From a virus: DNA of 39,826 bases. A program made the translations under genes and the position numbers. The notes under the pieces were generated by a model. The model was not told where the DNA came from and did no database searches. It saw only the letters and a list, made by a program, of their open reading frames with translations. Shown here in pieces: positions 5,513-19,143 of this stretch. Numbering within the stretch: the stretch's first letter is position 1; each line of letters starts with the position of its first letter. The stretch is from IMG/VR virus record IMGVR_UViG_3300027608_000004, positions 1 through 39,826 of that record; one strand, 5' to 3'.

Positions 5513-5878
5513 CCATCTGGAAGAGAGACAAGGATGATCACTTATCACCTATCGTTCGTTGGAGCGGAGCGGAGACGGTATAGGTACACAAGCCTCGCGG
5601 GATCACTGTCCTAGTATTAGTACGTACGCGTTGAGATTGTTTTATGGGCGGGGGAATGGATTTTACTGGGTGCTTCTGACTTGATCAATCAAATCGAAAC
5701 CAATCAAAACAAACAATCTGCGGCGGTTGACGGCGTGGTTCTATGGTTGTTTGTACGCTTTGTCCGGGGGTTTTGGCGTGCGGCGGGCGTACGATGGGAT
5801 TCCGTCCATGCTCTGGGATTGGCTTGTTTACTAGGTTTCTTGTCTCTTGTTAGGGTATTTTCAGCTTTGTGTCAGAAA

Positions 5879-5889
5879 GTTATCGACAA
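5879..5889 (+). promoter_or_regulatory. DnaA-box-like site GTTATCGACAA (copy 2)
   Basis: Identical to the 11-mer at 5462-5472, same strand, about 417 bp downstream and 50 bp before the first early gene. Confidence 0.4.
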
Positions 5890-5938
5890 TCTCGGAGCAT
5901 GGTCTAAGTTGTCTCCAGTTGCACGACGCAACGCCACA

Positions 5939-6109
5939 ATGAAAACAGACCAAGAAAGATTTTCCGCCGCTTATGATTTCTGGATTGCCGACGGTGCGCA
6001 TCCTGCCGCCGCTCGTGAGCTTGCTTGGGATCAACTAGATTTTGAGGACCATCAAAACGAGCCAGAAACTCTAGGCCCAATCGATAGCCTGCCGCTGCAC
6101 TCTTACTAA
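5939..6109 (+). CDS. Small early protein, hypothetical
   Basis: This 56-residue protein (MKTDQERFSAAYDFWIADGA at the start) is helical and acidic at the C-terminus. The ATG at 5939 follows a CCACA sequence. The same frame is open upstream to 5681, but that part is unlike a conserved protein and lies across the DnaA-box-like site. It is the first gene of the rightward operon. No family recognised. Confidence 0.6.
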   Translation: MKTDQERFSAAYDFWIADGAHPAAARELAWDQLDFEDHQNEPETLGPIDSLPLHSY

Positions 6110-6116
6110 AAAAACC

Positions 6117-6251
6117 ATGGAAACTGCCGACCTATGGCTTTCAACTGGAACTGTGACGGTAACTGACACGGGAGAAGAAAACACTTATTACTCGAACGAG
6201 TTTGGACACCTGTTTTTCTGTAAAAACCGCGATGGAGTCTCGTCATTCTGA
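6117..6251 (+). CDS. Small early protein, hypothetical
   Basis: This 44-residue protein starts METADLWLSTGTVTV and ends FFCKNRDGVSSF. It begins 7 bp after the previous stop behind an A-tract (AAAAAAACC), the leader type used throughout the early region. It is beta-rich in appearance. No family recognised. Confidence 0.5.
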   Translation: METADLWLSTGTVTVTDTGEENTYYSNEFGHLFFCKNRDGVSSF

Positions 6252-6296
6252 AACACTCACAAGCGGGTTCAATCTTCGCTTTACCCATACCACTGC

Positions 6297-6506
6297 ATGA
6301 ATCTTTCTTTATCTCATATCGTAAAACGTGAAGAAAAACACCGCTCTTTCGGCGACCGCCGCCGCAAAATCAATCACGTGATTGCCTCATACCGTGGAGA
6401 CGACGATGGTCTTGAGTATCGCAAATCATTTGAATCTTATGGCGTCCCTGTCGTGCCGGAATTCGGGGAAAACAATGAAATAACAAATCTAAAAATTCAA
6501 TATTGA
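6297..6506 (+). CDS. Small basic early protein, hypothetical
   Basis: This 69-residue protein has a strongly basic N-terminal half (REEKHRSFGDRRRKI) and an acidic, Gly-containing C-terminal half. The basic segment could bind nucleic acid, but no known domain is visible. Confidence 0.55.
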   Translation: MNLSLSHIVKREEKHRSFGDRRRKINHVIASYRGDDDGLEYRKSFESYGVPVVPEFGENNEITNLKIQY

Positions 6507-6517
6507 AACACACTCCC

Positions 6518-6679
6518 ATGAAAACATATGAAGAAATACTAAAGGCTTGCATCCGTTATTTCAAAACGAACGGACAAACTCAAGATACTTGCGATAAGCT
6601 GGAATCCATGCTACCTGGTGCATGGGCGGCGGAGTTGATAGCGGATGCACTGGATGCACTGGAAAGGGGGGAGGAATGA
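6518..6679 (+). CDS. Small early protein, hypothetical
   Basis: This 53-residue helical protein begins MKTYEEILKACIRYFK and ends with repeated ADALDALE. Its stop overlaps the next start (ATGA). The end of the gene carries a GGGGGGAGG stretch that serves as a Shine-Dalgarno sequence for the next gene. No family recognised. Confidence 0.55.
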   Translation: MKTYEEILKACIRYFKTNGQTQDTCDKLESMLPGAWAAELIADALDALERGEE

Positions 6680-6819
6680 ACTCAAGCTTATTCATTCTCG
6701 CGATTGTTTCCCTTGTCGGTTTGTCTTTGATCTTCGGGCGCAACGCTCCTAGAATATTCCTAGGCATTGCCGCCACGCTTTCCGCCGCTTGGATTGTCAC
6801 TACAATATTCACCGCTTAA
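6676..6819 (+). CDS. Small two-helix membrane protein
   Basis: This 47-residue protein has two hydrophobic helices, about 4-19 (SLFILAIVSLVGLSLIF) and 27-47 (RIFLGIAATLSAAWIVTTIF), separated by GRNAP. The start is set by the ATGA overlap with the previous gene and the GGGGGGAGG Shine-Dalgarno 5 bp upstream. A holin- or superinfection-exclusion-type early membrane protein is possible, but its early position argues against the main holin. Confidence 0.6.
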   Translation: MNSSLFILAIVSLVGLSLIFGRNAPRIFLGIAATLSAAWIVTTIFTA

Positions 6820-6829
6820 AAATAAAAAC

Positions 6830-7132
6830 ATGTATACCAGCAAAAAACGACTGAAAGAAATGATGAAAGATGCCGCAACATTTTTAGGAGTGGCCACGGC
6901 GAACGAAGTTCTTGCACACGCCTCCAAGGCAAGAGTGTTTTTCGAAAGGAAACTAGGAAAACATGGATTCGATTGCGTCCAACTTTCTCCCTATAAGGAC
7001 GGGGAATGGTTAATTTCCGGGATTATTCCCAGCGAAACGCGGTTTTTCTTCAAGACTCTTGAATTGGAGGATTGGATGGACTCGCCGAGCCAAACCGCGA
7101 GTATGATTATTGATCAATATTGCAAGAGTTGA
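6830..7132 (+). CDS. Early protein, hypothetical
   Basis: This 100-residue protein starts MYTSKKRLKEMMKDAATFLG, has a basic helical N-terminus and ends SMIIDQYCKS. Start chosen at the ATG after AAAATAAAAAC; an upstream in-frame extension would run back over the previous gene. Its last nine codons are part of the duplicated block found again at 7597-7716. No family recognised. Confidence 0.6.
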   Translation: MYTSKKRLKEMMKDAATFLGVATANEVLAHASKARVFFERKLGKHGFDCVQLSPYKDGEWLISGIIPSETRFFFKTLELEDWMDSPSQTASMIIDQYCKS

Positions 7133-7223
7133 AAATAAATCATTTTAATCTTGCTTGTCGGCATTTAGTCGCCATTCTATCCACAAGACAAGCGTGACCC
7201 GCGATGCAGGGCGAAACTCACAA
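7103..7223 (+). repeat. Direct repeat of about 120 bp, copy 1
   Basis: This block is about 85-90% identical by eye to 7597-7716. It covers the last nine codons of the 6830 gene and the following non-coding stretch. Within it, GCTTGTC (7153-7159) can pair with GACAAGC (7187-7193), and GTGACCC with GGG...TCAC forms a second hairpin. The last 30 bases (GCGTGACCCGCGATGCAGGG and the following CGAAACTCAC) are identical in both copies. Confidence 0.8.
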
Positions 7224-7232
7224 TTCTACCCG

Positions 7233-7400
7233 ATGCTAACCATGAGCAACCCAAGGCAATCGGGTTATGACATGGAAGGCGTGGTGAGCGTAGGCGGTCG
7301 CAAGTCCACTTGCTTTACGTCTTCCCAATTGTTCGAACTGCCTTGCGGAAAGCTTGTGGACGTAGCCGTGATCTTTTCCCGCTCTAAATTCAGACGTTAA
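7233..7400 (+). CDS. Small early protein, hypothetical
   Basis: This 55-residue protein (MLTMSNPRQSGYDMEGVVSV at the start) is beta-rich in its second half and ends in a basic tail (FSRSKFRR). The frame is open further up to 7155, but that part is repeat-derived sequence, so the ATG at 7233 is chosen. A second ATG at 7242 is possible. It lies between repeat copy 1 and a hammerhead ribozyme that begins two bases after its stop. Confidence 0.45.
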   Translation: MLTMSNPRQSGYDMEGVVSVGGRKSTCFTSSQLFELPCGKLVDVAVIFSRSKFRR

Positions 7401-7402
7401 AA

Positions 7403-7452
7403 AGTCGAAACTCCTTCGGGAGTCGCCGGATATTGTCCGGCCTGATGAGACT
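7403..7452 (+). ncRNA. Type II hammerhead ribozyme
   Basis: All core elements of a hammerhead ribozyme are present in the circular order of the type II permutation. Stem II is AGTC (7403-7406) with GACT (7449-7452). Core GAA is at 7407-7409. Stem III is ACTCC (7410-7414), loop TTCG, GGAGT (7419-7423), which includes the required A15.1-U16.1 pair. The cleavage nucleotide is C7424. Stem I is GCCGGA (7425-7430), loop TATTG, TCCGGC (7436-7441). Core CTGATGA is at 7442-7448. Every stem is perfectly paired. Cleavage is predicted between 7424 and 7425, separating the messages of the 7233 and 7472 genes. Stem II is short (4 bp), so activity needs testing. Confidence 0.85.
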
Positions 7453-7471
7453 ACAAACAAACTAATACACC

Positions 7472-7585
7472 ATGGAGAAAAAAACAATATGGGACGCGCT
7501 AGTCGAAAAACTAGGACGCAACCCGACGAACGCTGAATGCCGTGAAGAATGCTTGAGAATCATAAAGAAGGCCCGCCGCGCATGA
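7472..7585 (+). CDS. Small early protein, hypothetical
   Basis: This 37-residue protein begins MEKKTIWDALVEKLGRNPTN and ends in a basic stretch (RIIKKARRA). It starts 19 bp after the hammerhead ribozyme, so it would be the first gene on the 3' cleavage product. Its stop overlaps the ATG of a 14-codon remnant frame (ATGA). No family recognised. Confidence 0.5.
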   Translation: MEKKTIWDALVEKLGRNPTNAECREECLRIIKKARRA

Positions 7586-7626
7586 AAACCGCAAGGATGA
7601 TCATTGATCAATATTGCAAGAGTTGA
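7582..7626 (+). pseudogene. 14-codon remnant of the 6830 gene's 3' end
   Basis: The frame reads MKTARMIIDQYCKS. Its last nine residues are identical to the C-terminus of the protein at 6830-7132. It sits in repeat copy 2 and is best explained as the end of a duplicated gene whose body was lost or replaced. It could still be translated, by ATGA coupling to the 7472 gene. Confidence 0.6.
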
Positions 7627-7716
7627 AAATAAATCTTTTTATTCTTGCTTGTCGGCATTTTGTCGCCAATCTCTACACATCCAAGCGTGACCCGCGATGC
7701 AGGGCGAAACTCACAA
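7597..7716 (+). repeat. Direct repeat of about 120 bp, copy 2
   Basis: This is the second copy of 7103-7223, offset by about 494 bp. The outer stem is reduced to GCTTG/CAAGC (7647-7651 with 7682-7686), while the final hairpin and the CGAAACTCACAA end are unchanged. As with copy 1, a gene starts shortly after it (7742). Confidence 0.8.
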
Positions 7717-7741
7717 ATCAAATCAGATCAAATCAACTACG

Positions 7742-8068
7742 ATGAAAACTACACTCAGCACATATCAAATTGATGCTCTTAAAACCGACGAAAATGCCAA
7801 CTGGTCATGGAACGGGGCGAAAGCCTTGGCAGAATATTTGGAACAGCTTGAAGAGGACACAGGCGAGGAAATGGAATTGGACGTTTGCGCTATCCGCTGC
7901 GACTTTTCAGAATACGCCAGCTTGGAGGACTGGGCGGACGATTATGGAATGGATGAAGACATTTTAGACGGCGAAGATGAAGAGCGTGAGGATAAAATTA
8001 GGGATTACATCCAAGACCGTGGTCAGATCGTTGAATTCGACGGTGGAATCATCGTCTCAAGCTTCTAA
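7742..8068 (+). CDS. Acidic early protein, conserved phage hypothetical
   Basis: This 108-residue, very acidic protein begins MKTTLSTYQIDALKTDENAN and continues with WSWNGAKALAEYLEQLEEDT. The later part (CAIRCDFSEYASLEDWADDY) follows a pattern common in phage hypothetical proteins. Strong negative charge is typical of early anti-host or DNA-mimic proteins, but no such function can be claimed. Start chosen at the ATG at 7742; the frame is open upstream into the repeat. Confidence 0.6.
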   Translation: MKTTLSTYQIDALKTDENANWSWNGAKALAEYLEQLEEDTGEEMELDVCAIRCDFSEYASLEDWADDYGMDEDILDGEDEEREDKIRDYIQDRGQIVEFDGGIIVSSF

Positions 8069-8077
8069 ATTCAACAC

Positions 8078-8098
8078 GGCAAGGTTCGATCCCTTGCC
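8078..8098 (+). other. Hairpin after the 7742 gene
   Basis: GGCAAGG, loop TTCGATC, CCTTGCC, ten bases after the stop codon. No T-tract follows, so it is not a classical terminator. The loop resembles a tRNA T-loop, but the rest of a tRNA is absent. Confidence 0.5.
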
Positions 8099-8114
8099 AA
8101 TATTTCAAAACATC

Positions 8115-8267
8115 ATGAGAATCAAAATAGAATCAGACGTGAGAAAGACGGCATTCACTGCCACCTATCAGGGGACCGGGAGCGCCAGTTCGCAGCCGAT
8201 CAACCGATCAATCAACCCTGAAACTCAACTACAAGGCGTGTCTCTGTTGCGAGCACCGTCTTGTTAG
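8115..8267 (+). CDS. Small protein ending inside an attC-type R' box
   Basis: This 50-residue frame begins MRIKIESDVRKTAF and ends APSC. Its TAG stop lies inside the GTTAGCC box at 8263-8269 that opens the relic cassette. Its codons pass through the right arm of the attC-like site in a different frame from the array genes. It may be a genuine small gene or an attC-borne leader frame like that at 16260. Confidence 0.4.
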   Translation: MRIKIESDVRKTAFTATYQGTGSASSQPINRSINPETQLQGVSLLRAPSC

Positions 8268-8269
8268 CC
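8245..8269 (+). other. Relic attC right arm and R' box (GTTAGCC)
   Basis: The sequence ending in CACCGTCTTGTTAGCC matches the right arms of the array attC sites (CGTCTTGTTAGCC at 15470 and 17568). No clear left arm is found upstream. The R' box is the exact reverse complement of GGCTAAC at 8691, so it opens a cassette that carries the 8305 gene. Confidence 0.6.
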
Positions 8270-8304
8270 TTCTTCCGAATTATCAATCAACACTGATAAA
8301 CCAA

Positions 8305-8757
8305 ATGAGCAAAATACAACTAACCGACACTGCGCCCGCCATCCTCGCCAAGATGTCCGAAGGTAATCCCGGTGCAATCAACGTGATGATCCGAATGCTG
8401 GAAGAAGGTGAAGCCATCGACCCCCAAAGCGCGTTTGGTGGACTCGGCGCGATCCTCGCGCTCGATACCCACCGCATCTACGGCTCGAAAATCTGGATGC
8501 TCTACAAAGACGTATGCGGGCAAGACCTGGTCAAAATGCTGGCGGTGCTCCGTGCGTGCCAACTCGGGAAACTCACTGAGCGGGCGATGCTGCACGCAAT
8601 CGACAACTACGGAGACGGCTTGGACATCGCGGAGATTCTGAAAACGGTGAAAGCTGAACTGGAAGAATTCGATCGCGCGTCTGATTCTCTGGCTAACGAC
8701 CGCGCAATGTGGGAGGCCGCTCGCGCTGCAATCGCCAAGGCAAGGGGGGACGCATGA
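8305..8757 (+). CDS. Conserved phage hypothetical protein in a relic cassette
   Basis: This 150-residue protein contains AINVMIRMLEEG, GGLGAILALDTHRIYGSKIW and CQLGKLTERAMLHAIDNYGD, a pattern I associate with conserved phage hypothetical proteins. It is mostly helical. It begins 36 bp after the R' box at 8263. The matching inverse box GGCTAAC (8691-8697) lies in its coding region near the 3' end (codons for SLAND). The last 20 residues may therefore be encoded by what was the left arm of an attC site. Its stop overlaps the next start (ATGA). Confidence 0.65.
   Translation: MSKIQLTDTAPAILAKMSEGNPGAINVMIRMLEEGEAIDPQSAFGGLGAILALDTHRIYGSKIWMLYKDVCGQDLVKMLAVLRACQLGKLTERAMLHAIDNYGDGLDIAEILKTVKAELEEFDRASDSLANDRAMWEAARAAIAKARGDA
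8691..8720 (+). other. Relic attC left arm (R'' box GGCTAAC)
   Basis: TCTGGCTAACG matches the left-arm context of the array sites (TCTGCCGAACG at 14703, 15003 and 17485). The box is the exact reverse complement of the cassette's R' box at 8263. No right arm with CTTGTT is found downstream, so the site is decayed. Confidence 0.5.
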
Positions 8758-9131
8758 GTTGGACGTGCACAATGTGCGGGATTCGCCAATGGCCTGAATA
8801 CGTAAGCTCTTGCCCATTATGCAATGATGGGAGCGAGAACCCGGGCGAGCGGCAGGAAGGCATGTTCACAGCCAAGGAAATGGCAGTCAGCAGGTTTACA
8901 AGCGACGGATGCGCCAAATCATCCGCTGCTTTATGGTGGAAACGAATTGACAAGACGACTAACGAAGAATTGACGCCTGACATCATGGCGGAAAGCTTGG
9001 CACTCCTTCACGACGATGCCTGTGTTACCGCTTGGCAAGAGATGGAAACCGCGCCTTCAAGCTCAGCTTGGGCGGATGTTTGCGCCATTGCCGGGTTTGA
9101 TATCTGTAAAAACTACAACCAAAAACAATAA
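8754..9131 (+). CDS. Zinc-ribbon protein, hypothetical
   Basis: This 125-residue protein starts MSWTCTMCGIRQWPEYVSSC. Two CxxC pairs at residues 4-7 and about 20-23 form a zinc ribbon. The remainder is helical with Trp and Asp. A GGGGGG Shine-Dalgarno-like run precedes the ATG, which overlaps the upstream stop. The zinc ribbon suggests nucleic-acid or protein binding. Role unknown. Confidence 0.6.
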   Translation: MSWTCTMCGIRQWPEYVSSCPLCNDGSENPGERQEGMFTAKEMAVSRFTSDGCAKSSAALWWKRIDKTTNEELTPDIMAESLALLHDDACVTAWQEMETAPSSSAWADVCAIAGFDICKNYNQKQ

Positions 9132-9136
9132 ACGAA

Positions 9137-9352
9137 ATGAAAATATACAAAACCGAGACGTGCAATCAATACCAACTGGGGGACAAAACGCTTTGCGTAA
9201 CCACCGCAACATGGCGCAAAATACACCAAGTGACTCGGGAATGTCCCACCTTATTCATCGGCGGTGCATGGGGGGAAATTACTCCAAAGTTTGCCGCTGC
9301 CATCTTGAAACAATTTCGCCGCGAGTCTCCAAGGCAAGGGGGGGCAAAATGA
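9137..9352 (+). CDS. Small early protein, hypothetical
   Basis: This 71-residue protein begins MKIYKTETCNQYQLGDKTLC and ends KQFRRESPRQGGAK. It starts behind AACAATAAACGAA, a leader reused at 10937 and 14050. Its stop overlaps the start of the DnaA-like gene. No family recognised. Confidence 0.55.
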   Translation: MKIYKTETCNQYQLGDKTLCVTTATWRKIHQVTRECPTLFIGGAWGEITPKFAAAILKQFRRESPRQGGAK

Positions 9353-9702
9353 TTGCCGATTTCAACCTCCTAGTCGAAGAAACATCTCTTGCTTTCATGG
9401 TAGATCCGGAAGATATTCTGGGGCCACGGAGAACAAAGCTTGTGGCACTTGCACGTCATGTCGTCATGGCTCTATGGGCTGATTTCCACCCGTATCAGGA
9501 TGCGTCAACCCGTTGCAACCGAGGGTGCCACTCAACGGCAATGTGGGCGCGTCAACGGGTGCTTAACATGGCGGAGATTGACGAGTCTTTCGCCGCAATC
9601 GTGAGGAGCATTTCCCGGCGGTGCCAGCATGACTATTTTGCAATAAAGGAGCCGGAAACAGAAGAAAAACCCGAAGTGAAATATTTCACAATTTGTGCTT
9701 GA
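9349..9702 (+). CDS. DnaA domain IV-like DNA-binding protein
   Basis: This 117-residue protein contains VDPEDILGPRRTKLVALARH (residues about 18-37), matching the start of the DnaA C-terminal domain (..R.R..VLARQ...). GCHSTAMWARQRVLNM (about 64-79) aligns with the DnaA signature DHTTVLHACRKI, with the His-Ser-Thr core kept. No AAA+ domain is attached, so it can bind DNA but not load a helicase alone. Together with the DnaC-like loader at 20445 it suggests initiation at phage DnaA-box-like sites using host replication proteins (inference). ATGA overlap fixes the start. Alternatively it could be a regulator. Confidence 0.65.
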   Translation: MIADFNLLVEETSLAFMVDPEDILGPRRTKLVALARHVVMALWADFHPYQDASTRCNRGCHSTAMWARQRVLNMAEIDESFAAIVRSISRRCQHDYFAIKEPETEEKPEVKYFTICA

Positions 9703-9757
9703 ACCCGGCTGAATCCCGGATAAAACAAGCGCGTCTGACACCAAACAAACCAAAAAC

Positions 9758-10012
9758 ATGACCTCCAAGCTCCCAATTTACAGAAAAGGATCGATCCGCT
9801 ATGCAATCACCCCGCAGGGCGAGGCTCGCCCGCTGGTCCGCCGAAACCAGTATTCTGGCTGTTACCGCAACTCTAAAAAATCAGTCCCAGAAGGGCTCCC
9901 ATGGGGCCACTACCTCGGAAAACCAAGCAAAGTCGATCAGACTGAAATCGACTTTGTCGAGGTCGGGGTCTTTGAAACATCGGGCGACTGGACACGCCTC
10001 GTCTCTGCCTGA
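9758..10012 (+). CDS. Small basic early protein, hypothetical
   Basis: This 84-residue protein begins MTSKLPIYRKGSIRYAITPQ, with several Tyr and Gly residues and a basic middle (RRNQYSGCYRNSKKS). It starts behind the leader ACACCAAACAAACCAAAAAC. No family recognised. Confidence 0.55.
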   Translation: MTSKLPIYRKGSIRYAITPQGEARPLVRRNQYSGCYRNSKKSVPEGLPWGHYLGKPSKVDQTEIDFVEVGVFETSGDWTRLVSA

Positions 10013-10040
10013 GCGACACCAAACCAAACGAATCAAAAAC

Positions 10041-10235
10041 ATGAAAATCACCATTGAACCAACAGGCAAACAGCCCGAAAATATAGAGGATGCATATCCT
10101 CAAGTTTCAATCGCACTTGAAGGAGACTACCACAATCTGCAAGTGGTTGTCGATTGTCTTGTTGTCCCTGCTCTACGGGCATTCGGCTACCTTATCACGG
10201 AGGGTTGCATTAAGGTTCTCCCACATAATCTTTGA
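10041..10235 (+). CDS. Small early protein, hypothetical
   Basis: This 64-residue protein begins MKITIEPTGKQPENIEDAYP, a compact alpha/beta pattern. It starts behind ACACCAAACCAAACGAATC, a second copy of the repeated leader. No family recognised. Confidence 0.55.
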   Translation: MKITIEPTGKQPENIEDAYPQVSIALEGDYHNLQVVVDCLVVPALRAFGYLITEGCIKVLPHNL

Positions 10236-10285
10236 CATTAGATCCGACAATAAACCAAAAACATGACACCAAACCAAACGAAACA

Positions 10286-10918
10286 ATGGACCTAGACCAC
10301 AGCACACCAGAACTATTCGCCTCCATCGCTAAAATGCAGGGAGAGGTAGAGAACGCCACGAAGGGCAGCGTAAACCCGCACTTCAAAAGTAGATATGCAG
10401 ATCTTGCGGAGGTCCTGAACACCATCCGTCCAGTCTTAGCGGCAAACGGGTTATCAGTCATTCAGTCCCCGTCATTTGATGGGGTCCGGGTATGTGTCAC
10501 CACTGCCATTTGCCACTCAAGCGGAGGATATATTAGCGGGGAGATTTCATGCGTCCCTGCTAAACATGACGGGCAGGGTGTCGGAGCCGCAACAACCTAC
10601 CTTAGGCGCTATTCTCTGGCAGCATTTACCGGAGTTGCACAGGAAGACGACGACGGCCAAATGGCTCGCACGGAGCAACGTGCAACGTATCAGAAAATCA
10701 CACTAGCGCAGGCGTCTGCAATCAAGAGCGATCTAGAAGAGCTTGCAATTGATGAAGGCGCATTCTTGAAGCATTACGGAGTTGCTACGATTGCGGACAT
10801 TACGGCTGAAAAAATTCCGCTTATCGAAAAGGCGTTTTCCTCCAAGCGGAAGCCAAAAACCACAGAGGCAACGCTAAACGCTACCCTTGAGGCAATAACT
10901 AAGAAAGTCTTAGCCTAA
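10286..10918 (+). CDS. erf: ERF-family single-strand annealing protein
   Basis: This 210-residue protein has the ERF core ATKGSVNPHFKSRYADLAEV (about 25-44), TIRPVLAANGLSVIQS and VGAATTYLRRYSLAAFTGVA (about 110-129). The TYLRRY motif is diagnostic of ERF proteins. The C-terminal region (about 150-210) is helical and basic. It anneals complementary single strands in phage recombination, pairing with the exonuclease and SSB-like genes just downstream. Start at 10286 behind AACGAAACA; the upstream extension is out of keeping with the family N-terminus. Confidence 0.9.
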   Translation: MDLDHSTPELFASIAKMQGEVENATKGSVNPHFKSRYADLAEVLNTIRPVLAANGLSVIQSPSFDGVRVCVTTAICHSSGGYISGEISCVPAKHDGQGVGAATTYLRRYSLAAFTGVAQEDDDGQMARTEQRATYQKITLAQASAIKSDLEELAIDEGAFLKHYGVATIADITAEKIPLIEKAFSSKRKPKTTEATLNATLEAITKKVLA

Positions 10919-10936
10919 CATTAAACAATAAACGAA

Positions 10937-11095
10937 ATGAGAATCACACACACCCCGTTTAAGACAAGAACCCGCGCAATTGGAAGCGATGTTGAAATGA
11001 CGCTTGCATTTGTCGGCGCATTGAAGAACCCGAACAAAAGCGCATTCAGCAAACTTGGCAAGATCGCCACAACCCTCGCAAAGCTATTCAAATGA
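10937..11095 (+). CDS. Small basic early protein, hypothetical
   Basis: This 52-residue protein begins MRITHTPFKTRTRAIGSDVE and ends SAFSKLGKIATTLAKLFK, strongly basic. It lies between the annealing protein and exonuclease genes, overlaps the exonuclease start (ATGA) and uses the AACAATAAACGAA leader. Possibly a recombination accessory (inference from position only). Confidence 0.55.
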   Translation: MRITHTPFKTRTRAIGSDVEMTLAFVGALKNPNKSAFSKLGKIATTLAKLFK

Positions 11096-11895
11096 AAATC
11101 GAACAAGGACTAGGCAAGACGTATTACACGCGGTCAGCGACCCCTTCAGACCCCAAGGCGGGGCCAGTGTCAAAGTCGCTTCTGTGGGATTTCAACAAGT
11201 CCCCGTTTAAGTGGCGGCACGGAATCCCAAGGGAATCATCAAAGGCGATGGAACTAGGGACGCTTATTCATGCCGCGACTCTGGAACCTGAGACATTCGA
11301 CGACCTTGTTGTCGTCTCACCGTATCCAGACTTTCGCACAAAAGAAGCAAGGGAGTGGAAAATTGACCAGACTGGACTTGGCAAGATCATTACATCCGAT
11401 GAGGAAATCGAAAAAATTAAAGAGATTGCAACGGTTGTCCTCGATGACTACCACCTGAACTTCTTGGCGTCCTACAAAACCGAAATGGCGGTCTTCGGCA
11501 AGATCGGAGACACGGACATCAAAGGACTAATCGACCTTGTGCCTGATGGCTTAGATTGCTTGGTTGACCTGAAGACGACTGGGGAGATCGGGAGCCTTGA
11601 GTCCATCCAGCGGACCATCGTGAACCGGGGCTACCACTGGCAGGCAGCACTCTACCTTGACCTCTGGAACGCAGCAGCAAGCGAGAAACGCACACGGTTT
11701 GTCTTCTGCTTTGTGGAAGTGGACGCGCCGCACGAAACGGCATGGGTAGAAATATGTGAGAATTTGCTCGACATCGGGAGGGCTGGATATATGAATGCCG
11801 TAGCGAAATGGCAAACTTGCATTGCAACAAACCACTGGCCAAAGCAAATTGAAGGAATCGCAATCATCGAAACACCTAAATATATCCAACAATGA
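11092..11895 (+). CDS. RecE/exonuclease VIII-like PD-(D/E)XK nuclease
   Basis: This 267-residue protein matches the phage exodeoxyribonuclease VIII-like family (DUF3799/RecE C-terminal). Features are an N-terminal SKSLLWDFNKSPFKWRHG, AMELGTLIHAATLEPETF (the conserved G..H helix) and the catalytic core FGKIGDTDIKGLIDLVPDG then LVDLKTT, giving G..D and D.K residues of the PD-(D/E)XK fold. RGYHWQAALYLDLW supplies the trailing Gln-Tyr motif. It resects double-stranded ends to feed the ERF protein. Both neighbours overlap by ATGA, so the three genes are probably coupled. Confidence 0.85.
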   Translation: MKIEQGLGKTYYTRSATPSDPKAGPVSKSLLWDFNKSPFKWRHGIPRESSKAMELGTLIHAATLEPETFDDLVVVSPYPDFRTKEAREWKIDQTGLGKIITSDEEIEKIKEIATVVLDDYHLNFLASYKTEMAVFGKIGDTDIKGLIDLVPDGLDCLVDLKTTGEIGSLESIQRTIVNRGYHWQAALYLDLWNAAASEKRTRFVFCFVEVDAPHETAWVEICENLLDIGRAGYMNAVAKWQTCIATNHWPKQIEGIAIIETPKYIQQ

Positions 11896-12209
11896 AACAA
11901 ACAATTGATATCAGCCTTGACGTTAGCAAGATCGACAAAACGGCTCTTTACGAGTCTCCGAAGACTGGGAAGAAATACCTGAACATCTCGGTGCTTATCC
12001 GTGATGAAAAGGACCAATATGGAAACGATGGGTTCATCGTCCAGAAGATCAGCAAAGAACGTAAAGCATCTGGTGAAAAGGGGCCGATCCTAGGAAACGC
12101 GAAGATCATGGACTGGGATACGCCAAGGCAAAGCATGCACGGAAGTGAGAAATCGAACGGGTATGCACCGCAAGCTCAGGACGATGACGATTCTGAAATT
12201 CCCTTTTGA
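11892..12209 (+). CDS. SSB-like single-stranded DNA-binding protein
   Basis: This 105-residue protein has an OB-like beta-rich body (KTGKKYLNISVLIRDEKDQY) and a flexible tail ending DDDDSEIPF. That acidic tip is the typical partner-binding tail of bacterial and phage SSBs. It is shorter than bacterial SSB. Its start overlaps the exonuclease stop, completing a recombination module of annealase, exonuclease and SSB. Confidence 0.7.
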   Translation: MKQTIDISLDVSKIDKTALYESPKTGKKYLNISVLIRDEKDQYGNDGFIVQKISKERKASGEKGPILGNAKIMDWDTPRQSMHGSEKSNGYAPQAQDDDDSEIPF

Positions 12210-17282: not shown

Positions 17283-17497
17283 CAGCTTTTGCGCCGCGTG
17301 AGATGGTGAGCCACATCACGGACGAAAGCTCTGCTGGTATCATCGTAGCCTTCATGATGCGCGGATCAAATCACAGCTACGAAGTGCAATGGGGGATCGA
17401 AAAATGCACATGGCATCTTGACTTTGAACTCAGGGCAAAAGCTGACCAACCACGGCAAATCGGATTCTGGTCTGAAAATGGTCTGCCGAACGCATAA
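17216..17497 (+). CDS. Cassette 8: small beta-rich hypothetical protein
   Basis: This 93-residue protein contains REMVSHITDESSAGIIVAFM and NHSYEVQWGIEKCTWHLDFE, an SH3-like small beta-barrel pattern common in phage and mobile-element hypotheticals. The start is in attC H, and R' is read Arg-Leu-Val-Arg. An in-cassette Met (MVSHIT) is an alternative. The last residues (GLPNA) come from the R'' box of attC I. Confidence 0.6.
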   Translation: MKSDTTMTTENVVGVDHPRLVRPAFAPREMVSHITDESSAGIIVAFMMRGSNHSYEVQWGIEKCTWHLDFELRAKADQPRQIGFWSENGLPNA

Positions 17498-17574
17498 GCT
17501 CATGGATGCCGCATCACAGACTCCCGAACTCGCCAAAGACGCTGCGCGGCATTCCATGCAGCGTCTTGTTAGCC
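17485..17574 (+). other. attC site I
   Basis: R'' GCCGAAC at 17485-17491 and R' GTTAGCC at 17568-17574. CATGGATGCCGC (17501-17512) pairs with GCGGCATTCCATG (17546-17558) with one extrahelical base, as expected for attC. Confidence 0.9.
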
Positions 17575-18248
17575 CTCTTTTGGTGGCTGCGATACCATCG
17601 AAGGAGGCCGAACCGTTCTTACTGATGCGGCACTATGCAAAGCGGATGTGTCCGATCTCCTACGCCTTCGGAGCGTGGAGGGGAACGGAGCTTGTCGGGG
17701 TGGTGACATATGGAACGCCTGTAAGCTCAAATCTGCGGGATGGAATCTGCGGCAAGGAATGGTCGGCAAACGTGGTGGAACTGAATCGCCTGTGCTGCGA
17801 AAACTCCCCGAACGTGGCAAGCCTACTTGTGGGAAGGTCACTAAGACTTCTGCCGAAACCGTCCGTGGTGGTAAGCTACGCGGACACGGCGCAAGGGCAT
17901 GTCGGCTACATCTACCAAGCAACGAACTTCATCTACACCGGACTGAGCGCGAAGCGCACAGACTGGAAAATCAAAGGCCGCGAACATCTCCACGGCGCAA
18001 CCGTGGCAGACGAAAGCCGAGGCCAAGCCAACCGCGCCGAATGGATGCGCGCTAAATACGGCGACGACTTCTATCTCGATGACCGCCCGCGAAAGCATCG
18101 CTACGTCTTCGCAGTGGGAACGAAAAAGCAACAGGCCGCAATCAGGGCGGCTCTCAAATACCCTGTGGAACCATACCCGAAAGGACAAAGCCAACGCTAT
18201 GAAATCAACGCACCGATCACCACGCAAACCGCCTTTCTCTTGGGCTAA
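17502..18248 (+). CDS. Cassette 9: Mom-like DNA modification protein
   Basis: This 248-residue protein has an acetyltransferase-like (GNAT) core: MRHYAKRMCPISYAFGAWRG, LVGVVTYGTPVSS, VVELNRLCCENSPNVASLLV, then VVVSYADTAQGHVGYIYQAT and NFIYTG. This set, especially SYAD..(Q)GH.G.IY.ATN, is characteristic of the phage Mu Mom-like family, which converts adenine to a carbamoylmethylated form and blocks restriction. About 30 N-terminal residues through MQRLVS come from attC I; Mets before R' exist but none between R' and the core except LLMRHY. The stop codon falls in the R'' box of attC J. Confidence 0.7.
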   Translation: MDAASQTPELAKDAARHSMQRLVSPLLVAAIPSKEAEPFLLMRHYAKRMCPISYAFGAWRGTELVGVVTYGTPVSSNLRDGICGKEWSANVVELNRLCCENSPNVASLLVGRSLRLLPKPSVVVSYADTAQGHVGYIYQATNFIYTGLSAKRTDWKIKGREHLHGATVADESRGQANRAEWMRAKYGDDFYLDDRPRKHRYVFAVGTKKQQAAIRAALKYPVEPYPKGQSQRYEINAPITTQTAFLLG

Positions 18249-18523: not shown

Positions 18524-18781
18524 ATGACCGAATACGAAACAATAACACTATCGCTAATCGTGAAACCTAAAGGCGAACCGATCTTCAGTGAACGCTCCAC
18601 AATCATTGGAATGACTGACGAAGCATCCGTGCCTTTTGTTACTATACGCCAAAAAAACGACGACATTCTAGCCGGAGAGATTCGGATGGACTCGTCTGAC
18701 TGGAAACCAATCCGCGAAGCTATCGAGATAATGATCAACATTTGCGAAACCCAAGACAAAAGCATTAATCCAGAACCATGA
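18524..18781 (+). CDS. Hypothetical protein
   Basis: This 85-residue, acidic protein begins MTEYETITLSLIVKPKGEPI; the second half is helical (SSDWKPIREAIEIMINI). It is the first gene after the cassette array, behind an A-rich leader (AAAATAAAACAAGAAC). Stop overlaps the next start (ATGA). No family recognised. Confidence 0.6.
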   Translation: MTEYETITLSLIVKPKGEPIFSERSTIIGMTDEASVPFVTIRQKNDDILAGEIRMDSSDWKPIREAIEIMINICETQDKSINPEP

Positions 18782-19143
18782 ACACACAATACAACGACCC
18801 AAAAGGCGCAGCGGGATCACTCAAAGCCCCGCTAGGCTTAATTCCACCTCACGCAATGGAGCAGACAGCATGGGTTCATCAGCTAGGTTCCAGAAAATAT
18901 GGTCCGTTTAACTGGCGAGACTCCAAAGTTTGCGCAAGCACCTATATCAACGCCATTATGAGGCACCTAAACGCTTGGCGGGACGGTGAGGACTTGGATA
19001 CAGAATCAGGAATCTCGCACTTAGCGCACATTGCTTGCAGTTGCAACATCATGATGGATGCCAACTACTGCGAAAAACTTCAAGACGACCGAAATAAAGT
19101 CTTGCAGATGGAAAAAAAACAGAAAAACTACCCACATGAATGA
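18778..19143 (+). CDS. dATP/dGTP diphosphohydrolase-like protein (DUF5664 family)
   Basis: This 121-residue protein has the DUF5664 pattern: APLGLIPPHAMEQTAWVHQL, GSRKYGPFNWRDSKV, YINAIMRHLNAWRDGEDLDT and ESGISHLAHIACSCNIMMD. The family is annotated as an all-alpha NTP pyrophosphohydrolase-like phage enzyme that adjusts purine deoxynucleotide pools. In some phages such enzymes accompany PurZ and 2-aminoadenine DNA; no PurZ is seen here. The end overlaps the next gene by eight bases. Confidence 0.75.
   Translation: MNTQYNDPKGAAGSLKAPLGLIPPHAMEQTAWVHQLGSRKYGPFNWRDSKVCASTYINAIMRHLNAWRDGEDLDTESGISHLAHIACSCNIMMDANYCEKLQDDRNKVLQMEKKQKNYPHE

Follow-up and report, generated by a model that had tools for sequence, protein, structure and literature searches.

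Hammerhead ribozymes that occur in tandem in bacteria and prophages have been reported to cleave in vitro, and one set has been observed to do so in E. coli, while 4 of 18 consensus hammerheads were inactive in vitro (Perreault 2011, PMC3088659; cited throughout for the sections drawn on here). The same authors have proposed that such elements process transcripts into operon- or gene-length mRNAs. For HHphage, a hammerhead of the haloviruses HF1 and HF2, a transcript 5' end has been mapped at most 3 nt from the cut site, which is the nearest in vivo evidence in the parts of that work considered (PMC3088659). A 2017 review, in its relevant sections, has described the role of prokaryotic hammerheads as an open question (PMC6155905).

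The hammerhead considered here lies in a 39,826-base virus record, which has been analysed at its full length and is referred to as the window. Since the record carries a 127-base direct repeat at both ends, it is probably a complete circular map. Its plus strand encodes Erf, exonuclease VIII, a DnaC-like loader, a Mom-like protein and an RNA ligase, and its minus strand the major head protein, the large terminase and other structural genes; the ribozyme belongs to the plus-strand block, which is probably early as judged by gene content alone. The Mom-like DNA modification protein and a dATP/dGTP diphosphohydrolase N-terminal domain (17478-18248 and 18778-19143, plus strand) suggest that the phage may use modified DNA. 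No DNA similarity of positions 5600-12000 to named phages has been found, and the only named relative reached via the terminase is Phage C75C1 (41.5%), in which neither the descriptor nor the covariance model detected a ribozyme. As had been stated in the preliminary description, the element separates two small plus-strand open reading frames and begins two bases past a stop codon. The upstream frame (7233-7400, 55 codons) ends with TAA at 7398-7400 and has no relative among the 148 loci compared; the downstream frame (7472-7585, 37 aa) starts with the ATG at 7472, 19 bases past the ribozyme end, and has relatives of 54.5% identity in two ribozyme-bearing loci (L021 and L113).

Positions 7403-7452 of the plus strand have been confirmed, from the sequence and by modelling, as a complete 50-nt type II hammerhead of compact form with every core base present and predicted self-cleavage; descriptor, minimum-free-energy (MFE) fold and covariance model agree on this assignment, so that the full core and three stems claimed at the outset stand. 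Checked base by base, the order is AGUC-GAA-ACUCC-UUCG-GGAGU-C^GCCGGA-UAUUG-UCCGGC-CUGAUGA-GACU. The element starts with the 5' strand of stem II (AGUC, 7403-7406), an open stem of 4 bp that is completed by GACU at 7449-7452, and is preceded by A7402, denoted A(-1), a base conserved together with a loop-I U in 212 of the 221 unique copies with a 17-nt stem I. The core GAA (7407-7409), which we take to be G12, A13 and A14 in hammerhead numbering, leads into the stem III hairpin (7410-7423), in which ACUCC (7410-7414) and GGAGU (7419-7423) form five pairs under the UUCG cap already noted earlier (loop 7415-7418). C17 is found at 7424, where the cut had been placed, and the predicted scission therefore falls between 7424 and 7425; of 419 unique copies, 410 have GUC here. 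The 17-nt stem I hairpin (7425-7441) follows with six pairs between GCCGGA (7425-7430) and UCCGGC (7436-7441), a seventh U-G pair being possible within its UAUUG loop (7431-7435), and the core motif CUGAUGA (7442-7448) connects it to the closing strand of stem II. The hammerhead core is accordingly represented by CUGANGA, GAA, A15.1-U16.1 and an NUH cut site, and both descriptor and fold give closed stems I and III and an open stem II. For 7403-7455, the fold of lowest predicted energy is identical to this hammerhead structure, with -19.6 kcal/mol compared with a mean of -13.07 for shuffled versions (z -2.39).

With both strands searched, the descriptor has returned one match in the whole window. 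Among 300 Markov resamples of the window, three loose matches and none with stems II of at least 4, III of at least 5 and I of at least 6 pairs have been obtained. The Rfam search for a type II hammerhead that had been suggested as a check has given a divided answer: RF02276 (Hammerhead_II) does match when 81 bases are searched with laxer filters (27.5 bits, E 2.7e-4), while its gathering score of 37 is not reached, no family matched at the gathering threshold over the whole window, and no hammerhead appeared in a scan of 1,201 bases at E≤5. The score lies below the cut-off because the window copy belongs to a compact subclass, defined in this analysis, and not to the pseudoknotted form of the Rfam type. 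A covariance model built from 55 other compact sequences with the window excluded (R1) assigns the element 54.8 bits (E 3.4e-13), the next-best site in the genome scoring 9.9 bits.

A pattern scan of viral contigs has yielded at least 120 loci. Among the 120 listed, 114 hold descriptor-valid type II hammerheads, with 181 copies in total, and six gave no descriptor match; a Markov control of all 149 loci produced a single match, against the 181 copies in the real pattern loci. Regarding the length of stem I, 182 copies fall into two classes. In the longer class (118 of 182; stem I of 20-24 nt), 112 of 118 copies can form a pseudoknot of at least 4 bp between loop I and the tail, whereas shuffled tails allow this in a mean of 35.7 and a maximum of 48. 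The compact class comprises the window copy and 63 others, with a stem I of 16-18 nt (exactly 17 in 58) and a stem II of at least 4 bp in 63 of 64, nearly always 4 bp, and shows no pseudoknot excess (8 of 63 versus 6.0 by shuffling); UUGU in the window could pair with ACAA, although one of its U residues is a stem-I base and the class as a whole stays at this shuffled level. The same division is seen at the Rfam gathering threshold, at which 35 Hammerhead_II matches were found in 13 loci chosen for the longer-stem-I class and none of the 24 compact copies (descriptor count) in 14 loci was detected. The window copy has the 17-nt stem I, the 4-bp stem II and the combination of U7 in loop I with A(-1) that mark the compact subclass. 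It departs from the compact consensus in U9 and in an A-U pair closing the loop, where A at stem-I position 9 and G6 paired with C12 are each found in 79% of copies, as consensus and not invariant features; the third loop base, A in 79% of compact copies, is U in the window copy, whose tertiary contact may therefore be weaker. Exact patterns for the three permutations matched 0 stretches for type I, 6 for type III and at least 120 for type II, which is not a fair comparison because the fixed open stems differ in typicality, and descriptors in 294 loci, which had been chosen for type II or for gene relatives, gave 461 type II, 4 type III and 1 type I hammerheads.

Evidence that the helices are maintained comes from paired substitutions. 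The stem II pattern GGAC..GTCC was found in at least 120 stretches and its mismatched counterpart GGAC..GACC in one, a test that is free of selection by the search. Across the 55 compact sequences, both partners vary in 13 of the 16 pairs, full pairing there being partly due to selection, and the remaining three are fixed by the search patterns. Compensatory change is also present in L122, L123 and L130, which carry UUCC/GGAA as stem II. Positions 7 and -1 were left free in every search pattern, and they are linked: U7 and A(-1) occur together in 212 of the 221 unique copies with a 17-nt stem I, U7 without A(-1) in two, and in the seven copies that lack U7 the base before stem II is never A but T in five and C in two. 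The nominal probability of 8e-12 (Fisher, relatedness ignored) overstates the case, since the exceptions come from few loci. The window carries U7431 and A7402. From sequence covariation, this linkage suggests that loop I directly contacts the open end of stem II. Two compact copies each with exchanged bases, T or C before stem II, have been observed in L159, a contig of a Candidatus Lokiarchaeota MAG, and in L150.

The position of these ribozymes relative to genes is similarly constrained. Of 439 non-redundant copies, 399 have flanks of at least 300 nt and were counted (40 dropped). Measured from the inner 3-bp stem II, 344 of 399 copies have the stop codon of a frame of at least 40 codons at -3 to +12 nt, compared with 67 of 399 on the antisense strand, and a start codon follows 3-80 nt downstream in 387 versus 221 antisense. 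In an earlier set, from which 23 of 182 copies had been dropped for short flanks, the stop-codon placement was found in 135 of 159 copies; on the antisense strand it was seen for 13 of 159, and at random same-strand positions for 66 of 795. In the pseudoknot class, a UAG completed by the first base closes a frame of at least 40 codons in 43 of 52 copies; at large on those strands, 5,752 of 31,897 UAGs do so. Loci with several copies hold them all on one strand in 92 of 93 cases, with up to 11 copies at a median spacing of 503 nt, and in the sets that hold more than one copy the median gap to the next start is 19-24 nt. The adjacency to stop codons could be explained by nothing more than the dense gene packing of compact phage genomes.

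A 21-base match has led to a cultured carrier, Streptomyces phage Janus (NC_054660), which holds ten type II hammerheads by a relaxed descriptor and eight at the Rfam gathering score, one of the latter (L300 46285-46347) being new to the descriptor list. The total of about 11 copies lies on the minus strand in one block (L300 41285-48501), and these copies are of the longer-stem-I kind, not compact. All ten descriptor copies sit in gaps between annotated genes; eight begin at most 17 nt past an annotated stop, and nine end 23-39 nt ahead of the next annotated start. In the open-access literature searched, the one paper matching Streptomyces phages together with hammerheads concerns aminoglycosides. 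Among other carriers, the contig L119 contains a type-P5 twister ribozyme (10002-10065, minus strand) besides three compact hammerheads, and three compact-pattern hammerheads are found in L163 (1725-2311), a 4.2-kb contig labelled Clostridia bacterium and possibly derived from a phage.

Taking these observations together, the compact type II hammerhead probably acts as transcript punctuation that separates polycistronic RNA, the cleavage, the chemistry of the ends and the stabilisation being deduced. RNA polymerase would transcribe the 7233 frame, the ribozyme and the 7472 frame as one RNA, in which the 50-nt element would fold and, as expected from its complete core, cut after C7424. The upstream mRNA would then end in the UUCG-capped hairpin plus one base, with a 2',3'-cyclic phosphate about 24 nt past the stop codon, and the 6-7-bp hairpin would stand at the very 5' end of the downstream mRNA, which would bear a 5'-OH 47 nt before the 7472 start. 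Both predicted products do fold with terminal hairpins, which follows from stems III and I both being closed in the type II topology. Ends of this kind should be protected from 3' exonucleases and from decay that depends on a 5' phosphate, which would leave two separated messages, each stabilised. Of the two roles that had been offered, processing or decay of early mRNA, the processing of polycistronic RNA is the better supported, because hundreds of relatives are placed, on the coding strand, behind a stop codon and ahead of a start codon. Decay has become the less likely part: punctuation with end protection is favoured over it because both ends would bear hairpins and because 180 of 419 unique copies cap stem III with a UNCG or GNRA loop.

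Cleavage might nevertheless lower the expression of one neighbour, either by exposing the polycistronic RNA to decay or by uncoupling downstream translation. Some early genes need short-lived mRNA, and a cut between two open reading frames would end any translational coupling; we regard this down-regulation as unlikely, however, given the terminal hairpins on both products, the space left for a leader ahead of the following start codon (the medians of 19-24 nt) and the frequency of UNCG and GNRA caps, which is as for stabilising ends, though such caps also aid folding. A role in freeing gene-length RNAs, whose 5'-OH and 2',3'-cyclic phosphate ends would then permit ligation or circularisation, would agree with the tandem copies at a median spacing of 503 nt and with the RNA ligase domain PF09414 of the window phage (15422-16255, plus strand; 69.9 bits, cut-off 27). 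This role is very improbable: the window holds a single copy, so that its ribozyme alone releases no gene-length RNA, and among 40 ribozyme-bearing records PF09414 was found in one and RtcB in none, a count to be read with the provision that many may be fragments and that host RtcB is possible. As a general partner, phage-encoded re-ligation is unsupported by these counts. Spliced or circular products are likewise not reported in the sections drawn on of Perreault 2011 (PMC3088659).

The local history of the module bears on whether hammerheads spread between phage genes as selfish or vestigial elements that bring the phage no benefit. The gene at 7697 has relatives in 28 loci. Compact ribozymes occupy nearby junctions downstream of the 7697 homologue in L122, L123 and L130, a related ribozyme lies directly upstream of it in L127, and one is upstream in L057. 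In L122 and L123 nearly the same ribozyme has different flanking genes, and L147 retains upstream of its 7697 homologue a degenerate compact hammerhead with a broken core (700-750, 15.4 bits). Three loci with close relatives of the 7697 gene (L124, L125 and L131) show no ribozyme in the stretch examined, and the ribozyme is therefore not essential to the neighbouring gene. In the window, the module of two small reading frames and the ribozyme is flanked by a 94-base repeat of 90% identity (7092-7185 and 7586-7679) and by a second one of 38 bases and 97% (7189-7226 and 7682-7719); bounded by direct repeats, it looks inserted. The duplicated leader (7092-7226 and 7586-7719) also precedes the 7697 homologues in L122-L125, L130 and L131; a small hairpin, CCC-GCGATGCA-GGG, holds its ATG in the loop, and in the first leader copy this ATG opens a short reading frame that overlaps the ATG at 7233. 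While the differing flanking genes, the degenerate copy and the repeat-bounded module would suit mere spread, the strict strand and stop-codon placement, the stem II compensation and the 11 intact-core copies in the single phage Janus suggest continuing selection and leave a benefit-free origin scarcely credible. Chance resemblance or a transcription terminator is the least probable of all. In its favour stands a terminator-like site on the minus strand (7424-7409; two such sites in the region versus 1.9 expected by shuffling); against it, no equally good match arose in the 300 resampled windows, an independent model gives 54.8 bits, and the plus strand has no U-run behind either hairpin and no site at the ribozyme, so that the GC hairpin and U-run of an intrinsic terminator are missing on the coding strand.

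The punctuation reading may be carried further. It is possible that cleavage is gated by translation, and one may tentatively combine the findings into a joint picture, which we consider doubtful in its entirety: the compact type II hammerhead would be a distinct and widely used phage device overlooked by the Rfam cut-off, in which a single tertiary pair of U7 with A(-1), changed in 7 of 221 copies to A7 facing U or C, replaces the pseudoknot; as the element is anchored at the stop codon, the terminating ribosome would sit over the GAA core together with the 5' strand of stem II, cleavage would thus depend on translation of the upstream gene, and each cut would cap both mRNAs with hairpins. 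Reasoning from topology, no hammerhead permutation other than type II should place a closed hairpin on each side of the cut, and this would provide a concrete reason for phages to favour it. Many uncultured phages place compact hammerheads between genes, probably chopping a long message into end-protected messages. A covariance model of the compact class would let annotators detect copies below the Rfam cut-off, and the compact class, its anchoring at stop codons and phage Janus together make the role of prokaryotic hammerheads directly testable.

Self-cleaving RNA in tailed phages is also known from the Theta (HDV-like) ribozymes of gut phages, which, as described in the sections drawn on, differ in having another fold and a link to suppressor tRNAs (PMC10879173). 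HHphage of HF1 and HF2 shares with the window the position of a hammerhead in the early region of a virus, and differs by its variant core, its location 13 nt upstream of a start codon and its not being of the compact type II form (Perreault 2011, PMC3088659). In the open-access literature, as far as its accessible parts extend, the compact class, the U7/A(-1) rule and the stop-codon rule have not been found, with possible overlap in the tertiary contacts of Figure S5 of Perreault 2011. The closest likeness is to RF02276 and the hammerheads of that study, which, in the parts considered, have the same permutation, core and cut site and the same setting, in which genes of phages and prophages are flanked by multiple copies (PMC3088659). 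Their consensus combines a short stem II with a pseudoknot between loop I and the 3' tail, whereas the class to which the window belongs is distinguished by a stem I of 16-18 nt and no conserved pseudoknot.
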